Origin: a virus | Length of the DNA stretch: 35,219 bases | Reading direction: 5' to 3' (one strand) | Virus record (IMG/VR): IMGVR_UViG_3300031999_000111 | Span: 1-35,219 of that record | Part shown: positions 3,887-34,740 of the stretch, in pieces | Layout: each line of letters starts with the position of its first letter | Numbering within the stretch: the stretch's first letter is position 1 | Notes under the pieces: model-generated | The model's input: the letters and a program-made list of their open reading frames with translations, nothing else | Database searches by the model: none | What the model was told of the DNA's origin: nothing | Program-made: the position numbers and the translations under genes

Positions 3887-6064
3887 TTGGCGGCAAAGAA
3901 AATAGTCTATTCAAGTGCTTTGGCAACAGTGGTTGCGGTATTAATCTACCTTTCATCTATTCCAGGCGTGAGGATAACAACCTCTGGTGATATAACCTGC
4001 TCTGTATGCACTTCTTACTTCAACATCACATCGTCTAATTACAGCCTGAAGTTCTATAAATTCGACCAGAGACTTACTTTTTCTCCAGAAATAAAGAATT
4101 ATACTATCTACAGATACACCTACGGAAAATGGCGTGAGACGAAATTTCCTATCAACATGACCAAAGGAACACTATATCAATTCAAATTAGTCGGTTATAA
4201 ATTCAATCCTAGTGATAAAATAAAATGGGCTATATCTTCAGGAGATGCTAATGTTGACCCATATTGGTTGGCAATAGAAGGTAAAGGTGGGGGAGTGATG
4301 CTTAGAGAGTATCAGACACTTACATACGGAATAGTAGAAGAAGACCCTAATTATGATTTAAAAATAAATGATTTACACGAGACCGAAAAGGGATGTTTAT
4401 ATTTAGATGCTTCATTGGGATTGAAAAAACATCCAACAGGACTTTCAGCTAATTTTACGACATATAATATTAGTAGCATCGAAACAAATATCCCTTTTAA
4501 AATAAACAATTATACAGTCCTTTTGACTCTAAGCAATACAAGCACTCTAAGCACAAAGCAAATCAGTCCTAATTTTGAGATATGCAACATAGGGAATGTG
4601 ACAGAAATAGCACCATTTACGATAAGTCTAGGAAGTGCGACTACAAGTGTCGTGGCATGGTTCAATGCAAACCTTGAGATTTATAATGGAAGGATAAACA
4701 TAACTTTAAGACCGTCATGGGGTACTGTAGTAAGCCTGATTGATACTAATAGGACTCAGTGGGTTAGAACCTCTTCAGCTGCAAGTGATTATGGTCAAAT
4801 ATATGGGACAGACATTGCTCCAAGAACACAGCCATTTGTCGGTTCTTTAGTAAGTGGAGCTGCACCAAATTACGGTGCTTATGTAAACACGACACTTAGA
4901 ATAAATACACCACCTATGGTGTGGACATATTCTAGAGGGAATATCACACAACAAAATCAGAAAACCCAAGCTAACAATTCTAATACTCAGGAATTTATAA
5001 TATTATCAGGAGAAGATTTCTTCTATAGAAGAGTCTATCTATCGTCAAATACGAGTGCCAATTATTCATCTGACTCTTCTGCGTTCATTGAAGGAAATAC
5101 GATAAACAATGCTACAAGCAGAAACTTTACTGTTGCAAGCTGTGGTGCTGGTCAGGACATGGCGACTATAAACAGCACATATTTAGGTGACATGGGGTAT
5201 ATTTTATACAATCTTAAAGGCAATTCAGACTTATATACGGTAGTCGGCTCTTCGATGAACACTTCTGCACGAGGAATGTATAGATTCATGTGTGAGAATG
5301 ATACTAAATATAACATAATGTACCATGGTTATTGGGGCGGTTCAAGCAAATGGCTGAAATCTCAACCAAACAATACACTCGTAAATTACAGGATAAGTTT
5401 TGTTCCAAGAGTCCAAATGGACTTTACAGGTTCAGGCGGTTCTGGATTATATAACAACCTCACAAGGTCTAAATCTATATTGATAGGAACATCTACGATA
5501 ACAAACAGGACTTCGGGTTGCATACAAGGAATGTTTGGATTAAATACCTCTGATTTCTTCACCTGCAATGGATTGGAAAGCAATGGGGTATGGGCTTTGA
5601 ATGTTACTATTGCACCGAATGCGAACATAACAGGAGGAAGAATATATCTTAACATAGGAAATCTGACTTGGATGCCATACCAGCAGATTTTCATTTATAA
5701 TTCATCATCAGCAGTACCAGTAGCAAATCAATTAGGACTGCATTTAGCTAATGAAACAGGAACATGGGTATATGTGAACGATGCAAACATGACTAAAAAT
5801 GGAAATGCAACGATAAACGCAGGGACATACAACTATACAGGAATAGTAAATACTGGAAATACTGGTTTCCTTATGATACTTCAAGCAGATGCTTATGCCT
5901 CGACAAATCTGATAATACAGAATGTCACAATGGCAGTAACAGGGACAACGACAACTACAACAACGACAATCCCAGCAAACTGCTGGACATACGATAATGT
6001 AAATCATGTATTGATAATACCGTCTGGATGTGTTTATCATAATGATACGGTGGGAATAATCTAG
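3887..6064 (+). CDS. Large surface protein with N-terminal hydrophobic anchor and Thr-rich stalk
   Basis: 725 residues. TTG at 3887 is chosen as start because GGTGA at 3877-3881 gives the usual spacing and the paralogue at 20724 also begins with TTG. Residues 8-30 are hydrophobic (signal anchor). About 130 N-terminal residues match the 20724 protein, including 'ITTSGDI.C', 'YFNIT', 'YGKW', 'FPINMTKGT' and 'FKLVGYK'. The remainder is beta-rich with many N-x-S/T sequons and ends with a Thr run followed by 'IPANCW', a stalk typical of archaeal surface proteins. It is likely exported and glycosylated. Whether it is part of the virion or displayed on the host cell is unknown. Confidence 0.65.
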   Translation: MAAKKIVYSSALATVVAVLIYLSSIPGVRITTSGDITCSVCTSYFNITSSNYSLKFYKFDQRLTFSPEIKNYTIYRYTYGKWRETKFPINMTKGTLYQFKLVGYKFNPSDKIKWAISSGDANVDPYWLAIEGKGGGVMLREYQTLTYGIVEEDPNYDLKINDLHETEKGCLYLDASLGLKKHPTGLSANFTTYNISSIETNIPFKINNYTVLLTLSNTSTLSTKQISPNFEICNIGNVTEIAPFTISLGSATTSVVAWFNANLEIYNGRINITLRPSWGTVVSLIDTNRTQWVRTSSAASDYGQIYGTDIAPRTQPFVGSLVSGAAPNYGAYVNTTLRINTPPMVWTYSRGNITQQNQKTQANNSNTQEFIILSGEDFFYRRVYLSSNTSANYSSDSSAFIEGNTINNATSRNFTVASCGAGQDMATINSTYLGDMGYILYNLKGNSDLYTVVGSSMNTSARGMYRFMCENDTKYNIMYHGYWGGSSKWLKSQPNNTLVNYRISFVPRVQMDFTGSGGSGLYNNLTRSKSILIGTSTITNRTSGCIQGMFGLNTSDFFTCNGLESNGVWALNVTIAPNANITGGRIYLNIGNLTWMPYQQIFIYNSSSAVPVANQLGLHLANETGTWVYVNDANMTKNGNATINAGTYNYTGIVNTGNTGFLMILQADAYASTNLIIQNVTMAVTGTTTTTTTTIPANCWTYDNVNHVLIIPSGCVYHNDTVGII

Positions 6065-6072
6065 GTGAATCA

Positions 6073-6501
6073 ATGTATCCGTTAATAAGAATGATGTGGG
6101 GGGAGAAAGGATTTTGGGATATGTTGCCACCTGCCGAACCTGGTGGTGGTTATCCTGTTAGATTTCCTTTATGGACATATTATAATGTGAACTTTTCGGT
6201 CAAAAGCAAGATAATAAAGCCATTTATTTTTGATACAATGACTACTTCTTTGATTAAACGATTCTTTATGGAAGATTTCCCGATGAAGGGAAAGTTACAG
6301 ATACCGATTTCAAAAGAGATTGAAATGATTGCTCCAAAATACGCATGGTTGGATGAAAACTTTAACATATTCTCTTCAGTAAAAAGGGATTATAACATAG
6401 ATTTTAACATGATAATGATGCCTACTTCGGTAAATATAAATATCATAAACCTGTTGAAAAACTTAGACAAGATTAATTTGATTGATTATGTTGATGATTA
6501 A
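6073..6501 (+). CDS. Hypothetical protein, end of first late unit
   Basis: 142 residues, starting after a good AGGTGA site. The N-terminus contains a Gly/Pro-rich stretch ('PPAEPGGGYP') and the rest is an alternating hydrophobic/polar beta-type sequence with several Met and Ile. No family is recognised and there is no membrane segment. It closes the fibre block, and the next gene has its own promoter in the short gap that follows. Confidence 0.55.
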   Translation: MYPLIRMMWGEKGFWDMLPPAEPGGGYPVRFPLWTYYNVNFSVKSKIIKPFIFDTMTTSLIKRFFMEDFPMKGKLQIPISKEIEMIAPKYAWLDENFNIFSSVKRDYNIDFNMIMMPTSVNINIINLLKNLDKINLIDYVDD

Positions 6502-6503
6502 AT

Positions 6504-6522
6504 TTTAAATAGTAACATTGTA
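6504..6522 (+). promoter_or_regulatory. Late promoter motif, copy 1
   Basis: TTTAAATAGTAACATTGTA. The TATA-like half is centred about 28 nt before the ATG at 6535, so the protease gene is probably transcribed leaderless; no ribosome site precedes that ATG. The same motif occurs at 9839, 13647, 16829 and 25828. Confidence 0.7.
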
Positions 6523-6534
6523 CTTAGAATAAGT

Positions 6535-7749
6535 ATGCCCGTTCCAAGCAATCTTCCTGAAGGTGGAAAAAAGATATTTGAAAGCGTTATGGAATCCTTA
6601 AAAGGAAAGACTAATAAACGAACAGGCAAACCCTATACTGACGAAGAAAGGGGTAAAATCGCTTGGTCTGCTGTAAAAAGAAAATATTCTAAAAAAGCGG
6701 ATGGATGGGAACTCAAATCAATCCCAGAAGATGATTGGGAAACCTGTTTTAATTCATCTCCATTGGAATTCAAAAGTCAGGATGGAAATTATTATTTCTC
6801 TGGTTATTTAAGCACATTCGACCTGGATTTGGTAAACGACATAGTATCTCCCGATTGCATGAAGGATATGCTAGAGCAGATAAAGATGGGAATGAACGGG
6901 ACAATGAGAAGTTTCAAAGGATCTCCAGACCATGATGTTTACTGGTATGAAGACCCCCAGTTAAAACCCATCTCAAAAATCACAGATGCCATCCTTGATG
7001 CTAAAGGGATATTGATAAAAGGAATGTTCAATTCTGCACACCCTGAATTCAACTGGGAGGAAATACAAAAAGGTTTCTATGATGGTCTTAGCATCGAATA
7101 CAAGGCGACTGATTTTTCTTTCAAGGATGTGGATAATAAAAAAATTAGAGTCTTAAATAAAGTCCAATTAAAAGGTTATGGTCATACGCCAAGACCAGCC
7201 AATCCCTATTCAACGCTTACTGATGTTTTTATAAAAAGTTTGGAACTTGAGGAAATCAAGGAAGAAGAGTCCATTAAAAAGGACATAGAATCTCATCTAC
7301 ATAGAGACATAAAAGAATATCAAATGATGATTTCTGAAGATGAAGACTTCCTCAAGAAATTAAGTCAAGATTGTCCAATTTGCGAAAAAAAATCGGAGGA
7401 TGAAATAATGGCGGACAAAAAGGAAGAGGTGAAATCTGAACCTCAACCTCAGCCTGTTCCTAAAGTTGAAGAGGTTAAGACTATTGAAGTCAAGACTGAA
7501 ATCAAACCAGAAACAAAGGTTGAGGAAAAGAAATCAGAGAACTTAGAAGAGACGATTACAAGGATAGTCAAAGACCAGTTAAAGTCAATGACACCTGAGA
7601 ACAAAGCTGTACCTAATGTTACCTTTGAAAAAAATGAAAAAGGTGAGATTAAGGCATCAGCCGAGAAATTTGAAGAGATTAAATCAAAAGAACCCACAGA
7701 CCTTGTTGGATATGTAACAAAAGGTTTGGGGTTACAAGGAGGTAATTAA
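6535..7749 (+). CDS. ChaB domain-prohead protease-scaffold polyprotein
   Basis: 404 residues in three parts. Residues 1-55 are a ChaB-like domain ('LPEGGKKIFESVM' then 'KIAWSAVKRKYSKK'). Residues about 80-235 match the HK97-type (S78) prohead protease: 'FSGYLSTFDLDLVNDIVSP', a candidate catalytic His in 'GSPDHDVYW', a candidate catalytic Ser in 'FYDGLSIEYKA', then 'LKGYGHTPRPANP'. Residues about 240-404 are charged, Glu/Lys-rich and coiled-coil-like, as expected for a scaffold or delta domain. It lies directly upstream of the capsid gene, the normal order for maturation proteases. The product should scaffold and then cleave the procapsid. Its own promoter at 6504 makes a leaderless start likely. 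Confidence 0.85.
   Translation: MPVPSNLPEGGKKIFESVMESLKGKTNKRTGKPYTDEERGKIAWSAVKRKYSKKADGWELKSIPEDDWETCFNSSPLEFKSQDGNYYFSGYLSTFDLDLVNDIVSPDCMKDMLEQIKMGMNGTMRSFKGSPDHDVYWYEDPQLKPISKITDAILDAKGILIKGMFNSAHPEFNWEEIQKGFYDGLSIEYKATDFSFKDVDNKKIRVLNKVQLKGYGHTPRPANPYSTLTDVFIKSLELEEIKEEESIKKDIESHLHRDIKEYQMMISEDEDFLKKLSQDCPICEKKSEDEIMADKKEEVKSEPQPQPVPKVEEVKTIEVKTEIKPETKVEEKKSENLEETITRIVKDQLKSMTPENKAVPNVTFEKNEKGEIKASAEKFEEIKSKEPTDLVGYVTKGLGLQGGN
7408..7749 (+). CDS. Internal in-frame start for a separate scaffold protein
   Basis: Within the protease-scaffold gene, ATG at 7408 ('MADKKEEVKSEP') is preceded by GGAGGA at 7395-7400 with near-ideal spacing, one of the strongest ribosome sites in the window. 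It would yield a 113-residue Glu/Lys/Pro-rich protein equal to the scaffold part alone. This is the arrangement known from lambda C/Nu3. That it is used here is inferred from the ribosome site. Confidence 0.5.
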   Translation: MADKKEEVKSEPQPQPVPKVEEVKTIEVKTEIKPETKVEEKKSENLEETITRIVKDQLKSMTPENKAVPNVTFEKNEKGEIKASAEKFEEIKSKEPTDLVGYVTKGLGLQGGN

Positions 7750-8856
7750 ATGGCTTTTGGAGAAATGCCCGAAAATTTGATGCCAGAATTAGCCTACCAA
7801 GCGACATTCGGAAATATGCCAAATCATACTATCTATCTGGATAGATTGGCAGGTATATTTGACGAGAGGAAATCAATAGACAGAAGACAAGAGATGAAAG
7901 ACCAGATAAAGTCTTTGACTACTACAAGCAATCTATTTGCCACAGGAATAAACTATACATCCACATCTGGAAGCATTCCAGTATTGGTACCAACAGTTGT
8001 CGATTCTACACTCTATGATGTGACTTTCAGAAGCACACCGTTAGCAAGTGGATTATTGCCAAGGGTTACCAACAACGGATTGTTTGCAGACTATGTTGTA
8101 AGAACAGCACTATCCACAGCAAAGTGGAGAGCAGAAACAGGAGCATTGGCGAGTAACGAATCAACTTATACGAGATACGCCGCACCGATAAAATTCTGTT
8201 ATGCAGTTGGAGAATTGAGTGGACCTTTGATGGTCGCTTCAAAAGTATGGCAGGAAGCACTTAGATACGAGACAGAAGGTCAATATCGTTCCTTGAAGGA
8301 ACTAGAAGAAAATACGATAATCAATGGAAACCCGACAACAGGAACATACGATGGTACTTATGCGGATGCTAACGCATTCAAAGGATTGATAGCAACAATA
8401 GGTTCTACTGTTGGTGCAGCTAAATCAACTTTGAGTGGAACATCTAAAATTAGTCTAGCCAACTTGAGGGATGGTATAAGATTAATCAGAGAAGCTAAAG
8501 GAGAACCAGACTTGATTGTAACCGATTATAAAACATTAGATGACATTAAATCTTTGATACAAGATTTACTTAGATACCCAGCACCGACAGGAAACATAAG
8601 TTTTGGTATTGAAACTATCGTATTTGAAGGAGTTCCAATAATCCCAGACTTGTTCATGCCGACTACTGCAACAGTAAGAGAACTGTTGATTTTGACAGTA
8701 AAGAAACAGGGAAACATACAGCTAAGAGTATTGCAGGATACGACATTCGAGGAATTGGCAAAGACAGCAGATACATACAAGTTCATGATAAAGGAATACT
8801 TTACCATGATACTAATAAAAGAGGCATGGTGCTTTAGGTACTATGCTATAGCTTGA
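7750..8856 (+). CDS. Major capsid protein, HK97 fold
   Basis: 368 residues, starting directly after the protease stop with a GGAGGT site. Typical HK97-family features are the N-terminal charged arm, 'GSIPVLVPTVVDSTLYD', the conserved 'LEENTIINGNPTTGTYDG' region near residues 185-200 followed by 'ANAFKGLIATI', 'EPDLIVTDYKTLDDI', and a C-terminal 'ELAKTADTYKFMIKEYFTMILIKEAW' segment. Length is normal for the family. It forms the icosahedral shell and is the maturation target of the protease encoded upstream. Confidence 0.88.
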   Translation: MAFGEMPENLMPELAYQATFGNMPNHTIYLDRLAGIFDERKSIDRRQEMKDQIKSLTTTSNLFATGINYTSTSGSIPVLVPTVVDSTLYDVTFRSTPLASGLLPRVTNNGLFADYVVRTALSTAKWRAETGALASNESTYTRYAAPIKFCYAVGELSGPLMVASKVWQEALRYETEGQYRSLKELEENTIINGNPTTGTYDGTYADANAFKGLIATIGSTVGAAKSTLSGTSKISLANLRDGIRLIREAKGEPDLIVTDYKTLDDIKSLIQDLLRYPAPTGNISFGIETIVFEGVPIIPDLFMPTTATVRELLILTVKKQGNIQLRVLQDTTFEELAKTADTYKFMIKEYFTMILIKEAWCFRYYAIA

Positions 8857-20723: not shown

Positions 20724-23700
20724 TTGGTCACAAAAAAAATCATATTGGGAACTTCTTTAACTACTGTATTAGGCATTTTAATTTACTTATCAACTTTACA
20801 GGGAGTAAGTATTACAACTTCTGGTGACATTAAATGTCTAGGAACTTTAGAGAATCCATGCGTTTCTTACTTTAATATCACTTCTAATTATTACACATTA
20901 AAATTCTTCAATACTTCAAATCAAAAATTATCTTTTTCTCCTGAAGTCAAAGACTATAAAATTTATAGGTTTACTTACGGCAAATGGAAGGAAATCAATT
21001 TTCCCATCAACATGACTAAAGGAACTAAATATCAGTTTAAATTAGTTGGCTATAAAAAAACTCTTTTTGACAATATAAAATGGTCTATCGGGATGGGGGA
21101 TACTGAGATAGATCCTTGGTGGAATACCACATTTGTAAAAAGAAACAATATAACAGTAAGTGGTATGGGAGCAGCAGCAAGAATAAATTATCCTGTAGGA
21201 ATAAATATAACCTATGCTTCTGGCATGAATGCTAATTTCAATGATTTGAGGTTTCTTAATGACACGACTTCAGTTGATTATTGGATAGAATCGAATGTCA
21301 CATCAAGCTGGGTTTATGTGTGGATAAAAATACCATATCTGCCTTCAAGTCCGAATGTGACTATTAGTATGTATTATGGCTCTGGGGATACTCAAACGAC
21401 TTCAGATGGTGTTTCAACATTCCTATTATTTGATGACTTCAACGACAATTCATTCAATACGACAAAATGGAAAACTAATGCAGGTACTCCAACAGAACAA
21501 AATGGTTATGTCTTAATAGATAGCACAGATGATATTGAAAGTTATTACCAGCCGACAATGATTAATGTTTCTTTAGAAACGAGGGCAAACATCACGACTA
21601 CGGGCATAAATATTGGTTTTTATAATGACACAGAAAACTCCAGGGCATTGTTCCAACCAGCAAATACAAGGACTCAAACTTCTGATGGGGTTGTTACTTA
21701 TTATCAAAGTTTTGGTAGTATGACTTATCCATTGAATAGCTGGGATACTTGGATTATTTATATAAATAGAACCCAAGGAGAAAGGAATAATGTGGAGTTT
21801 TATAAGAACACTACAAAAGTAACTAATCATACGGAGAATTTACCAGCAACAAAAGCAAATGCTAGATTGTATGGTAATGGTGCATCTTTTGATTGGATAT
21901 TCATAAGGAACTATACTTTTCCCGATGCCCAGGCATCTATTACTTCTGAAGAGACTTATACAGCTCCTCCAGTTTCTATGAGTCTATCAGTCCAGATGCC
22001 TCAATATATAGGATATTCAACCGAAGACACTACTACCGATTCCAACTTGCCTAACTCCTATTGGAACAATAATTATACTTTAATCTCAGGGGGATACACT
22101 TCTGTAATATCTTCTGGAACGATTACGACTAACAATGCTTCTCAATCGAGCTGGAACGAAAGTTTTACTGGAAATCAAAATAATATTTTCTATGTAAGGA
22201 TTAAAAAGACTTCAAATGTTACAGGTGGGACATTGGATTTAAGTGGATATAATTCAACCAATACAACAAACTCACTGAATACTTTAACTATAGTAGAAAA
22301 TTTTGACAATTCCAGTGAATATAAATCAAAATCATCTGGATGTTCAATTCCGATCACAAGTACTCTACATAACACTCAAGGCGCATACTCTACGATATTT
22401 AACAGGTCAAGCACGGGAATATGTGCCTATAATTATTATGAAGATACTTGGGACAATACTACTTCAATCGCTAATTTAATGGATACTAATGTCGAAGTAT
22501 GTGTTGATGTTTGGATAGATAGTTCAACAAGCGGGATTGCATCAATCCAGGTGGCTTTAACAGATTATGAAGATATAAATTATATAAGTTGGAGATGGAC
22601 CGAATTTTCTATTGGAGAAAATTATTTGTGTAAGAATTTCAGCTATTATAATGATAGGTCTGGTGATATAACACAGGCAAATAGCACAGAAATAAGTTTT
22701 TTTATTAGTACATATTCTCCATCCCAATCATGGTTTTATATGGACAATCTAAGAATAAGCAATTATACATCCCCAAGCAATCCCCATCTTGATGTGGGCG
22801 GCGATAGCATTTGGAACTGGAACTATACGGGGATTTTTAATGTAACCAATAATAAGACTTACGATTTTTCTTCAGATATGAGAGATTATATCTCCACTTG
22901 TTCTCCAAATATTCAAGGATACTGTGATGTGCCTTTTATATTGTATTCGGATTCGGGAGGTAAAATTCAGATAAGTTCTATGCAAATCAATTATACTTCT
23001 ACTACAGCAAACTGGACTATAAACCCTTCAAGATATGGTTGGTATAAGTTTCCTGTGAATAATCTGAATTACTTTGATACTGCCACTTTAAATCTCTATC
23101 AGCAACCTACTTTGAATAATTCCTATGGTTACGATTGTAATAGTTCTTATCCATGCGTTACTAACCTTTATTATTCTTCAAATCAAACTTGGTCTGGAAT
23201 AAGTTGGAATACGAATCCTACTTGGTTAAATTATATAATAGAAAAGAAAAACTTCACTTCAAACATCGGTTGGAGATATTATAGCATAACAAATCAGTTG
23301 AAATCAATCTATTCTAATGTAACTTATATGTTGAGAATACCGATGCAGAATTTAGACTTGAAGTCGATGAACTTCACAAAAAGCGGTTATTCCTCATCTG
23401 TAAACGCTTATTACAGACCATATTCCTATACGACAGGCGGAGGTCTCAATTATAATGCAACTTATGCTTATGACAATAATTCAAATGATACTACAACCTT
23501 TGCTCAAACTGGCGGTGATGGTGCTAGTGTGGGTACGATAACATATAATTTTAACATCGGAAACAATGGGAGTTCCACAATATTCTATACATACAATGGC
23601 ACAAGCGGTGGTGTTCAGCTTTATAATTATATCACAAGTTCCTGGGATACAGTCGGGACAAGCTCTTCCACTCTTACAACAGGCTCGACCTCTTTAGTTT

Positions 23701-24203
23701 CAAACTATATAGATTCTATAGGAAGCGTATCATTGAGAATCACATCGGCAGGTATTAGCACAGGTGCTATCACTCGGCTTTGGGATACATATATAAATGT
23801 CTATAGTCCATCGTCTTTCGGTCCATATATAAACGCAAGTGTGACAAAATATCAAATGAATGCAAGTTCATGTATTTCTCTAGGAAGTATGCCATGTTAT
23901 CAGAATGGTTCATTCACTCCTAAAGGTCAGACCAATTCGCAATGGATATGGAACATAACGAATGTCGGAACTATCAATGGAAGTGTAAACGCTTATTGGT
24001 CTCAAAATCTTCCTTCCTGCATGAAGCATTATCTTTCTACAAACTATACTTTTGAGTCTTCAGTCGATTATAATGTTAGCAGCACGAATGCTGTAAGCAT
24101 AACCAGTTTAAATACAAGCCAAAGCCAACAGTTCTGGGGGTTCTTTGTATTGAACAACTGCACTGCTGGATATTGGATTAATTCCACATTGGTATTTGGG
24201 TGA
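20724..24203 (+). CDS. Giant surface/fibre protein with DUF2341-type lectin-like domain
   Basis: 1159 residues from TTG 20724 (GGGGAT ribosome site). Residues about 5-25 are a hydrophobic signal anchor. Residues 1-135 parallel the 3887 protein ('SITTSGDIKC', 'FSPEVKDYKIYRFTYGKWKE', 'FPINMTKGTKYQFKLVGYKK'). From about residue 130, 'WWNTTFVKRNNITVSG', 'NFNDLRFLNDTTSVDYWIES', 'VWIKIPYLPSSPNVTISMYY' match DUF2341, followed by a concanavalin-like start ('LLFDDFNDNSFNTTKWKT'). The rest is a long beta-rich, sequon-rich array. Glycan binding by the lectin-like part is inferred. It lies between distal tail genes, so a receptor-binding fibre is plausible. Confidence 0.65.
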   Translation: MVTKKIILGTSLTTVLGILIYLSTLQGVSITTSGDIKCLGTLENPCVSYFNITSNYYTLKFFNTSNQKLSFSPEVKDYKIYRFTYGKWKEINFPINMTKGTKYQFKLVGYKKTLFDNIKWSIGMGDTEIDPWWNTTFVKRNNITVSGMGAAARINYPVGINITYASGMNANFNDLRFLNDTTSVDYWIESNVTSSWVYVWIKIPYLPSSPNVTISMYYGSGDTQTTSDGVSTFLLFDDFNDNSFNTTKWKTNAGTPTEQNGYVLIDSTDDIESYYQPTMINVSLETRANITTTGINIGFYNDTENSRALFQPANTRTQTSDGVVTYYQSFGSMTYPLNSWDTWIIYINRTQGERNNVEFYKNTTKVTNHTENLPATKANARLYGNGASFDWIFIRNYTFPDAQASITSEETYTAPPVSMSLSVQMPQYIGYSTEDTTTDSNLPNSYWNNNYTLISGGYTSVISSGTITTNNASQSSWNESFTGNQNNIFYVRIKKTSNVTGGTLDLSGYNSTNTTNSLNTLTIVENFDNSSEYKSKSSGCSIPITSTLHNTQGAYSTIFNRSSTGICAYNYYEDTWDNTTSIANLMDTNVEVCVDVWIDSSTSGIASIQVALTDYEDINYISWRWTEFSIGENYLCKNFSYYNDRSGDITQANSTEISFFISTYSPSQSWFYMDNLRISNYTSPSNPHLDVGGDSIWNWNYTGIFNVTNNKTYDFSSDMRDYISTCSPNIQGYCDVPFILYSDSGGKIQISSMQINYTSTTANWTINPSRYGWYKFPVNNLNYFDTATLNLYQQPTLNNSYGYDCNSSYPCVTNLYYSSNQTWSGISWNTNPTWLNYIIEKKNFTSNIGWRYYSITNQLKSIYSNVTYMLRIPMQNLDLKSMNFTKSGYSSSVNAYYRPYSYTTGGGLNYNATYAYDNNSNDTTTFAQTGGDGASVGTITYNFNIGNNGSSTIFYTYNGTSGGVQLYNYITSSWDTVGTSSSTLTTGSTSLVSNYIDSIGSVSLRITSAGISTGAITRLWDTYINVYSPSSFGPYINASVTKYQMNASSCISLGSMPCYQNGSFTPKGQTNSQWIWNITNVGTINGSVNAYWSQNLPSCMKHYLSTNYTFESSVDYNVSSTNAVSITSLNTSQSQQFWGFFVLNNCTAGYWINSTLVFG

Positions 24204-26154: not shown

Positions 26155-26183
26155 CTTTTCTTTATTTTAATTTTTTTAATTCT
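26155..26183 (+). terminator. T-rich late terminator
   Basis: Directly after the TAG of the holin candidate comes a T-dominated stretch with several T runs (up to 7) and no hairpin, the usual archaeal termination signal. It ends the plus-strand late region just before the pentamer array. Confidence 0.5.
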
Positions 26184-26185
26184 AG

Positions 26186-26388
26186 TGTATATCATATGAT
26201 GTCATTGCATGTAATTTAATGGAATTCTATGGAATATTATAAAGTCGCATCTGATTCTATAGTATGTGATAATATCAAATTAAATGTAATGTTGTGAAAT
26301 TATAGTATTAAGTGGCATGACATGGGATGGTATATTGTCGAATGAAATATTATATGGTTTCATTACATTTTATTTTATTATATAAAAT
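26186..26388. repeat. 5-bp periodic NNN-(A/G)-T array, main copy
   Basis: Reading from 26186, 23 consecutive pentamers end in AT (21) or GT (2), up to 26300. After a 3-nt slip (TAT at 26301-26303), 17 more from 26304 to 26388 end in AT (14) or GT (3). The first three bases of each pentamer are varied (for example TGT, ATC, ATG, GTC, TGC, GTA). The element is non-coding. It lies between the late T-rich terminator and the early-operon terminator hairpin. It is not a simple microsatellite, a CRISPR or a coding repeat. Partial array: see 27226-27270. Function unknown; a protein-binding ladder is the leading idea. Confidence 0.8.
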
Positions 26389-26391
26389 AAA

Positions 26392-26409
26392 AGGGGAATT
26401 AACTCCCCT
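26392..26409. terminator. Bidirectional hairpin terminator at the convergent boundary
   Basis: AGGGGA at 26392-26397 pairs with TCCCCT at 26404-26409 around a 6-nt loop. On the plus strand CTATTTTT follows; on the minus strand TTTTATTTTAT follows. The stop of the 26399 gene lies inside the hairpin, so it probably terminates the early minus-strand operon and blocks read-through from the late side. Confidence 0.6.
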
Positions 26410-27214
26410 CTATTTTTACCAATTTAATTATCCCACCGAATACTTTTGAATTTGCCCCTAAACCATCAAGCCCTGCTTCCTCTATCATTTTGAACCAATC
26501 AACTATTTGCTGTTTGGTTTTTAGCTTAGAACCCCTGAATGGAAATCTCATCATCAATTTAAATTTGCATCCCTTTGGTATCATCTCATAGTCGCACATC
26601 CCTTCTTTTACTTTCAACTGCTTCCATTCTGTTTTAGGCTGTTCCAAGAATGTTCCCTTGCTTATAGCTAAATGATATGTTATGGATTGTGGCAAGTCTA
26701 TTAATGCAGCATTATTTCTCATCAACCCATACATCCAGTTTGGTAGGATGACTAATTTTCCATCTATTTTCGGAAAGACTAATTTTCTTTCTTCTCCATT
26801 AGACCATCCACCCAATATTGGCGTTATTGTTTCAAATGTCATGTCGAATGTATGGTAGTCCCCCCATACCCCCCTTGGTTCGATTATTCTTGGTTCTTTC
26901 TTTATTTTTTCATTTAATGATTCCAATGCCAGTTTCATCTCTATTTCAGTGCTTGTGCTGTTGCAAATAGCCATTATACCAGAACTGTACCAAGCAGGTA
27001 TATCTGCCATTTTCCAGAGCAGTTCACCATTATGATAATTCCCTGCTATGACTTTTCCTGCTTTATGCTTTCTCAGATAACGGATTAATTTATCTTTTTT
27101 TATTTCCATCTTCATCTGTTTGTTCAGATAATTCAAGACCTCATCCGTAGAAGCCTCTTTAAGTTCTCTTATAGCCGAGAACACAGCTATCTCTTCCTTT
27201 GGATTATATTCCAT
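26399..27214 (-). CDS. Winged-helix-like / RAMP-like protein bracketed by pentamer arrays
   Basis: 271 residues with an AGGAGG site. Residues 1-70 look like a winged-helix domain ('IAVFSAIRELKEASTDEVLNYLNKQ', 'IRYLRKHKAGKVI'). Residues about 115-271 have features of a RAMP/ferredoxin-like fold: 'FDMTFETITPILGGW', 'KIDGKLVILPNWMYGLMRNNA', 'KFKLMMRFPFRG', and a C-terminal Gly-rich 'GLDGLGANSKVFGGIIKLVKIE' resembling the RAMP loop. Similar phage proteins exist but their function is unclear. It is the last gene of the early operon, with its own possible promoter. Pentamer arrays lie just before its ribosome site and just after its stop, so it may bind them. The fold assignment is tentative. Confidence 0.5.
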   Translation of the reverse strand: MEYNPKEEIAVFSAIRELKEASTDEVLNYLNKQMKMEIKKDKLIRYLRKHKAGKVIAGNYHNGELLWKMADIPAWYSSGIMAICNSTSTEIEMKLALESLNEKIKKEPRIIEPRGVWGDYHTFDMTFETITPILGGWSNGEERKLVFPKIDGKLVILPNWMYGLMRNNAALIDLPQSITYHLAISKGTFLEQPKTEWKQLKVKEGMCDYEMIPKGCKFKLMMRFPFRGSKLKTKQQIVDWFKMIEEAGLDGLGANSKVFGGIIKLVKIEGS

Positions 27215-27225
27215 CTTCTCTTCCT

Positions 27226-27270
27226 CCTATTTTATTTCATGCAATAGTATGCAATAATATCTGATTACAT
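27226..27270. repeat. 5-bp periodic NNNAT array, short copy upstream of the 26399 gene
   Basis: Nine consecutive pentamers (CCTAT TTTAT TTCAT GCAAT, then AGTAT GCAAT AATAT, then CTGAT TACAT) all end in AT; the phase then slips by one base (ACGAAT). It lies about 12-56 nt upstream of the start of the 26399 gene and abuts its ribosome site. An 18-bp word at 27244-27261 matches 26259-26276 of the main array at 16 positions, in the same pentamer phase. Confidence 0.7.
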
Positions 27271-33636: not shown

Positions 33637-34740
33637 TCAAATAATCGTGCATTTCTGCACTAATTGTTTTTTCAGATTAAAGAAGTGTCTTCTTGAGTAT
33701 CCGCTTCTTTTAACAAATTCGTTTATTTGTTCGTTCACATCCTTGAATTGCATTTCTTTTATTACCTCTAAAAATATTGCCTTATCTTCTTCTGTTTTTA
33801 ATTCTAAGTTAGCTATGTTTTTCCAACCATTGTTCATATTGGTCAAATAAATCTCATTTATTTTAAAAAGTGTCCTGAAGTTTAAATTACTTGCTTCAGA
33901 AGAATTATCCTTTATGAAATCCAATACTTCTAATGGTATTCTTTGCAATTTTCCTATTTCATAGATAAGTTTAACAGTATCGGCATAATTGAAATTCAGT
34001 TCATAATAGAAACATCTGCTTTTTAATGTCTCAAGATGTTCTGGTATATGATTAGTTAATAAGATTATCTTGGATTTAAACTCAAATTGGCTTGGAACTT
34101 TAAGTTTTTCTGATGTTGTAAGCCAATTCACTATTCGTTTATTTGTGGGATTCCAAAGACAAGCCATTAATATATTACATTTTATTTCTTCCGACCACAA
34201 ATTACTGATATCATCAAGTATTATTATCTTATTATCGCTATACTTATAAAAGAACTCATAGAGTTCCATCGGTGAACAGTGAGTATTAAGCAATACATAA
34301 TCCTTTTCATATCTTAATCCATTGTCGTTTAAGCGTTTAATGACATTAAAAGATTTTCCTTTTCCCGTGCTACCACAAATTATTAAGCCGAATATACTCT
34401 TACTGTTAATCAAAGTATCTACATACTCATTAAGATATAAAAAATATTCGTCTATCTTGTTGTTGGTCGATTTAGAAATCTCTTTTATAGATTTGTTTAA
34501 ATCCTTTCGTGTCTTATCTTCCAATCGTTTTAATTGCTCGGATTCAAACTCTTTTTCTTCTACTTTAATCTTGGATTTCTCTAATTCCTTTAATTTTCTC
34601 CAATCCTCGCCTAAAATATGAGAATAATTTTCATCTTTTTCTAAAGTATTATCCCAAATAGCATGAATATCCAAGTCTTTAATATCGTTTTTAGATAGTA
34701 AATTATTCAATTCCCCCTCTATTATGTTATTCATTTTCAT
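33637..34740 (-). CDS. P-loop ATPase with C-terminal HTH-like segment
   Basis: 367 residues. A coiled-coil N-terminus (about 45-95) precedes an AAA-type core: Walker A 'CGSTGKGKS' near residue 123, Walker B 'KIIILDDIS' near 172, sensor-like 'IILLTNH' near 230, and 'LKSRCFYYELNF' in the place of a late arginine. The C-terminus 'INEFVKRSGYSRRHFFNLKKQL' looks like a helix-turn-helix. The plan resembles DnaC/IstB-type helicase loaders or viral initiator ATPases. No helicase or primase is visible in the window. It is the last gene of its operon and overlaps the terminator hairpin of the opposing unit. Confidence 0.65.
   Translation of the reverse strand: MKMNNIIEGELNNLLSKNDIKDLDIHAIWDNTLEKDENYSHILGEDWRKLKELEKSKIKVEEKEFESEQLKRLEDKTRKDLNKSIKEISKSTNNKIDEYFLYLNEYVDTLINSKSIFGLIICGSTGKGKSFNVIKRLNDNGLRYEKDYVLLNTHCSPMELYEFFYKYSDNKIIILDDISNLWSEEIKCNILMACLWNPTNKRIVNWLTTSEKLKVPSQFEFKSKIILLTNHIPEHLETLKSRCFYYELNFNYADTVKLIYEIGKLQRIPLEVLDFIKDNSSEASNLNFRTLFKINEIYLTNMNNGWKNIANLELKTEEDKAIFLEVIKEMQFKDVNEQINEFVKRSGYSRRHFFNLKKQLVQKCTII
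33647..33672 (+). terminator. Hairpin plus T run ending the 32889-33622 unit
   Basis: GTGCA (33647-33651), TTTC loop, TGCAC (33656-33660), then TAATTGTTTTTT. It lies within the 3' end of the opposing ATPase gene. A second arm TAGTGCA at 33620-33626 can pair with TGCACTA at 33656-33662, giving an alternative fold. Confidence 0.45.

Follow-up and report, generated by a model that had tools for sequence, protein, structure and literature searches.

A long array of NNNRT pentamers beside a predicted RAMP gene in a viral genome: a probable VIPR-type guide locus

The viral genome IMGVR_UViG_3300031999_000111 (IMG/VR), all 35,219 nucleotides of which were analysed and are here called the window, carries a non-coding array of about 43 pentamers that end almost without exception in AT or GT and vary in their other letters, which raises the question of what such an array does for a virus. 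Very probably it is a guide locus of the VIPR (Viral Interference Programmable Repeat) type, in which the array RNA would be bound by copies of a RAMP protein and its variable letters would guide these to a DNA target. The array itself, its conserved pairing with a gene in a distant relative and the general association of such arrays with RAMP genes in viral contigs are directly supported. Transcription, RNA binding, DNA targeting and repression would follow by homology with VIPR, and the array in the present virus would act as RNA rather than as DNA.

The initial annotation described 40 pentamers ending in AT or GT at 26186-26388, and direct reading reproduces this exactly. From 26186, 23 units (TGTAT to GAAAT) are followed by a 3-nt slip (TAT, 26301-26303) and by 17 units ending at 26388, with AT closing 35 of the 40 and GT the other five. 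Leftward the array extends to TTAAT at 26176-26180, TCTAG being the single exception, and the whole feature is as follows.

26176 to 26388, plus strand: long array of about 43 pentamers reading NNN[A/G]T (AYNNN on the opposite strand), in two in-phase blocks, 26176-26300 and 26304-26388.

Chance had been dismissed as an explanation on the estimate that about one pentamer in five would end in RT. The measured share of AT plus GT is 15.2% of the window's dinucleotides, about 1 in 6.6, and chance is still not credible. Runs of 23 and 18 RT steps are found at period 5 only, the longest run at any other period (10 excepted) being 9. Seven RT units in succession were observed 43 times in the window vs 0.2 expected from dinucleotide shuffles (largest value 2), and a log-odds array finder gave 70.9 on the minus strand and 59.8 on the plus strand, with a maximum of about 11 in ten Markov shuffles. 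Across the 40 units R and T hardly vary, whereas the first three letters of each pentamer are diverse and close to random, in agreement with the view that this is non-coding DNA under selection and no microsatellite. The variants of the constant step are strand-asymmetric, with GT over AC at 5:0. Microsatellite, iteron, partition ladder and nucleosome-like phasing were all considered and rejected.

A minus-strand gene sits exactly between the long array and a second, short array that the initial annotation had missed. Its product was already among the binding partners named there, and it is the likely one.

26390 to 26411, both strands: terminator-like bidirectional hairpin AGGGGAATTAACTCCCCT between long array and gene; on the plus strand a possible 3' tail or terminator of the array, on the minus strand the gene end.
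26399 to 27214, minus strand: vipr-like gene of 271 aa, with an N-terminal winged helix (residues 1-91) and a C-terminal RAMP-fold domain (about 118-271).
27226 to 27270, plus strand: short array of 9 NNNAT pentamers in the leader of the vipr-like gene, a little 5' of its start codon; two more units may follow after a 1-nt slip.

Contig 3300009320_000035, from a distant relative, shows the same arrangement at the matching position, so that the array survives the refutation test set in the initial annotation. This contig was also recovered independently when viral contigs were scanned for 11 consecutive NNNAT units. It is L133 in the numbering of fetched viral loci used here, and its capsid protein (MCP) is 44% identical to that of the window. 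Its gene at 7232-8032 encodes a 266-aa protein with 38% identity to the 26399-27214 product over 265 residues, and arrays lie on either side of it.

L133, 7142 to 7216: short array of 16 units, immediately upstream of its vipr-like gene.
L133, 8122 to 8328: long array of 42 units (207 bp), immediately downstream of its vipr-like gene.

Array orientation relative to the gene is alike in both viruses, the gene strand reading AYNNN and the other strand NNNRT. The long array of the window divides at its slip into 25 and 17 units and that of L133 into 14, 15 and 12, which suggests several guides placed end to end with no tails between them. The capsid gene is common to only six viral contigs. In a closer relative, 40 kb long and with a capsid 77% identical, gene and array are both missing, and small unrelated genes stand at the corresponding place. 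Since gene and array are kept together in the distant relative and are both absent from the closer one, they form an optional cassette that behaves as one unit. In L133 this cassette is bordered by paralogous HNH-endonuclease-like genes (6329-6727 and 8400-8822), which may help to explain its presence or absence among related viruses. No member of the gene family other than that of 3300009320_000035 was found in viral_contigs and genome_contigs. A host search with the capsid protein in genome_contigs gave no match; the virus is probably archaeal.

Pairs of this kind recur in many phages. VIPR was described in 2026 as a phage-encoded system, proposed as an ancestor of CRISPR, which consists of the RAMP Vipr and usually an accessory gene (Vap) (bioRxiv 2026, doi 10.64898/2026.04.26.720920; PMC13142463). 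Its arrays are expressed as RNAs of about 100 nt that co-purify with Vipr and carry a structured 3' tail after the repeats. These vrRNAs hold 9-16 pentanucleotides of a constant GGY and a hypervariable NN, and the NN letters pair with DNA in a noncontiguous code with a one-base skip, by which VIPR represses competing mobile elements (PMC13142463). Seven types, with GGY/NN "or a related consensus" (fig. S17), occur in phages and archaeal viruses (PMC13142463). The comparison made here uses the GGY consensus, and NNNRT may fall within the related consensus of that figure.

When viral contigs were scanned by pattern alone, first for runs of 11 NNNAT units and then for 14 RT units in succession, array loci were recovered each time, and the second scan links arrays to RAMP genes according to how diverse the arrays are. 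Among the matches listed, a RAMP-like gene stands no more than 3 kb from 1 of the 40 arrays that use 1-3 distinct dinucleotides, which are true microsatellites, from 22 of the 45 that use 4-6 and from 15 of the 24 that use at least 7. L015 has three arrays, about 60 units in all, directly after a gene of 217 aa, and a repeated tail follows two of these arrays; at L089 arrays flank a 196-aa gene on both sides. The two proteins match phrog_4652, a family of unknown function (E 3e-7 and 7e-9), and homologues of the L015 protein stand beside the arrays of L038 and L010, which had been recovered by array pattern. A weak tblastn match pointed to Felixounavirus, whose E. coli and Salmonella phages have a phrog_4652 gene (E 2e-96) and its neighbour between two gaps of about 400 bp full of NNGGT arrays. 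In Escherichia phage Alf5 (L141), such arrays at 2680-2870 and 4064-4282 surround the hypothetical gene gp091 (phrog_4652) and its neighbour gp092 (phrog_5926). Arrays and genes together very probably make up the Felixounavirus VIPR locus, which the record leaves unannotated.

The constant part of these linked arrays ranges from GGT (Felix-like) through GAT (L038) and RAT (L015) to NRT (L089, the window and L133). RAMP-linked NNNGT arrays were further noted at L165:589-715 (minus strand, 26 units), L245:3121-3202 (minus strand), L186:2900-2976, L235:4203-4279 and L206:2788-2864; the relaxed two-letter consensus is thus also found outside the present virus. Other diverse, long period-5 RT arrays, some of them NNTGT or NNYGT, had no Vipr-profile match within 3 kb (L174:6535-6651 and L191:6998-7069, both minus strand; L233:5516-5582; L022:3281-3397; L006:6150-6257), and are either coincidental or placed beside relatives of the RAMP that have diverged too far for the profile to recognise. 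In a control search, the phrog_4652 profile also matched the genomes of Caulobacter vibrioides and Thermotoga maritima, where the hits could be Viprs or CRISPR RAMPs.

Is the protein between the arrays of the window a RAMP? Pfam, NCBIfam and PDB sequence searches returned nothing usable, PHROGs only a weak short match, and tblastn against phages nothing. A profile of L089 and L183, array-linked kin of phrog_4652 with relaxed arrays, matches the L133 homologue with E 0.004 among 9,949 open reading frames (ORFs), and a profile-profile comparison (hhalign) gives P 1.4e-4. In a MAFFT alignment every motif block of the window protein falls in register with 42 Viprs, its G-loop GLGANSKVFGGI lining up with GIGxxRPxxGxFGRF. 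Residues 108-271 were modelled by AlphaFold2 on a Vipr-rich alignment, with 43 Vipr-like homologues, at pLDDT 81 and pTM 0.78. Among the Foldseek matches listed for this model against PDB, 50 of 50 are RAMPs of the Cas7/Csm3/Cmr type (best, Csm3 5yjd, E 1.3e-6), and structural comparison (VIA) gives Z 11.3 to a type III-D RAMP over 146 of the 164 residues of the domain model. In BFVD the top match (E 1.3e-6) is annotated "Cas system-associated RAMP superfamily protein". The C-terminal domain is therefore predicted to adopt a RAMP fold with a single RRM-like core and a G-loop. Two uncharacterised archaeal-virus proteins also matched by Foldseek in BFVD, A7WKN2 of Betalipothrixvirus (E 1e-3) and A0A0A0P750 of Los Azufres archaeal virus 2 (E 6e-3), are possible further archaeal Viprs. 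The winged helix of residues 1-91 resembles STIV F93 (2co5, Z 10.1); it is fused to the RAMP N-terminus, and a separate vap gene was not identified.

The locus shares with VIPR a virus-encoded single-RRM RAMP, strict 5-nt units of constant and hypervariable letters in non-coding DNA on both sides of the gene, and a DNA-binding accessory domain; archaeal viruses are among the VIPR carriers (PMC13142463). It differs in its RT rather than GGY constant, its free third N, its nearly uninterrupted run of about 43 units, the want of a clear conserved tail between guides, the fusion of winged helix and RAMP, and a guide that apparently reads from the strand opposite the gene. The phrog_4652 proteins such as Alf5 gp091, the likely Felixounavirus Vipr, are likewise array-linked and RAMP-like, whereas they are served by NNGGT arrays and the window protein adds the winged helix. 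With the backbone RAMPs of Class 1 CRISPR-Cas (Cas7, Csm3, Cmr4) the C-terminal fold is shared (Foldseek E about 1e-6, Z 10-11), as is the notion that RAMPs form a filament along a guide RNA. Here, however, the units are 5 nt long and there is no repeat-spacer array: the tandem-repeat scan of the window gave no CRISPR-like array, and no other Cas-like protein, Cas6, Cas10 and Cas1 included, was noticed on inspection of the ORF list. The best reading of the locus is a VIPR variant whose RT scaffold is relaxed, whose arrays are very long and whose RAMP is fused to a winged helix.

In such a variant the array would be transcribed, probably from the plus strand and convergently with 26399-27214. 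The RT dinucleotide at each fifth base would form a constant RNA scaffold held by successive RAMP copies, and the letters between would serve as a noncontiguous guide steering the RAMP filament to its DNA target, the likeliest being a competing virus or mobile element. The fused winged helix might help to hold or repress the target DNA. The plus strand is favoured as the RNA because GT and not AC is tolerated, because linked systems have G-rich constants and because a hairpin and T-run stand 3' of the array on this strand. TTCG-loop hairpins stand 3' of the L133 array, and a repeated tail was found in neither virus.

Several observations weigh against assigning the locus to VIPR. Over 99 pooled units the constant letters are A88 G11 followed by T98 C1, which departs from strict GGY, and about 43 units in 210 bp exceed the 9-16 published per vrRNA. 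The homology case rests on the bridging subfamily and the predicted fold, because a broad Vipr profile built without the window and L133 proteins finds neither of them and the phrog_4652 profile has no match in the present genome. The fold prediction is not independent of the motif alignment, since the alignment given to AlphaFold2 already included Viprs; with a two-sequence alignment (pLDDT 54) the fold was not confident and the winged helix alone was. Both the transcription of the array and its strand are what we infer. Searches for targets were also empty. The guides of the window and L133, compared with about 4.5 Mb of viral DNA under the rules NN with skip 0-2, NNN with skip 0-1 and N2N3 with skip 1, gave nothing above shuffles. 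Against phage records the collapsed NNN array gave chance-level matches only, both at the DNA level and when decoded by hand into a peptide, and all Vipr-linked guides against all fetched loci were distributed like shuffled guides. A match of 16/18 between the short array and relative G002 was inspected and judged to be chance. These target searches are uninformative rather than negative, because the DNA searched was small and mostly unrelated.

The third letter, free over the 99 pooled units (A31 T31 C22 G15), may be unread, in which case the published rule stands, or may serve as a third letter of the guide. That each NNN is read as three guide letters with RT skipped, so that the whole array would specify a contiguous target of up to about 129 bp, seems unlikely. 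Codon-phase tests on the same units gave no support for the third letter as a codon-like wobble base and do not speak for its being a guide letter.

How do other explanations fare? A ladder for a multi-copy nucleic-acid-binding protein, as first proposed, holds in outline but not as a partition site on alternating faces of the DNA helix. On the partition view, the winged-helix protein would polymerise on a duplex RT ladder that serves as centromere and as autoregulatory site upstream of its own gene. PDB matches of the winged helix do include viral F93 proteins and 4rs8, the centromere-binding protein of pNOB8 (Z 9.1), the short array lies within the promoter region of 26399-27214, and the AT step is its own complement, which makes most of the pattern alike on both strands. 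Against this, the C-terminal domain is a predicted RAMP, and Pfam shows no winged helix in array-linked RAMPs from elsewhere, such as those of Felix O1-like phages; it is thus the RAMP that the array accompanies. The excess of GT over AC is not strand-symmetric, and no partner of the ParA/ParM/TubZ type was noticed in the ORF list, in which no systematic profile search was made; an AAA-type ATPase gene lies at 33637-34740. The parH site of TP228, named as the closest analogue, likewise has short regular boxes adjoining the gene of a DNA-binding protein, but here the partner is a RAMP and the information lies in the variable letters. The RAMP-fold partner, the recurring pair of gene and array and the match to a published RNA-guided system make the analogue wrong in our judgement, and a DNA-level site very unlikely.

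A self-regulatory RNA leader, in which protein copies would coat their own mRNA through its 5' and 3' arrays and target no other DNA, has an equally slender, if not slimmer, chance. TRAP on NAG-repeat RNA is a precedent for a 5-nt periodicity in RNA, arrays stand at both gene ends, and the gene strand reads AYNNN in both viruses. However, a leader gives no role to the hypervariable N positions, an array RNA read as RT would be antisense to the gene, and the VIPR relatives target DNA (PMC13142463). A decayed tandem repeat or functionless mutational artefact is barely conceivable, for although many true microsatellites occur among the period-5 arrays of the same collections, it is refuted by near-random N positions beside nearly invariant R and T, and array length and position are kept in L133 and the link to RAMP genes depends on array diversity.

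Elsewhere in the window, two large genes (3887-6064 and 20724-24203) have closely similar signal-peptide-like N-termini (KKI...LATVVAVLIYLSSIPGVRITTSGDI and LTTVLGILIYLSTLQGVSITTSGDI), and the first also matches relative L137 at the region of the second, which suggests duplicated surface proteins.

As a VIPR variant with a looser scaffold, longer arrays and a fused DNA-binding domain, the locus would illustrate the extent to which the VIPR code can drift, would bear on whether two or three letters of each unit are read, and would offer a compact test case. A three-letter reading would make it a denser code than NN with a 1-nt skip, run by a RAMP to which a DNA-binding domain is fused. Simple pattern scans, for R-T at each fifth base with diverse letters between, detect such systems without knowledge of their proteins, even in lineages where the RAMP has diverged beyond the reach of sequence profiles.
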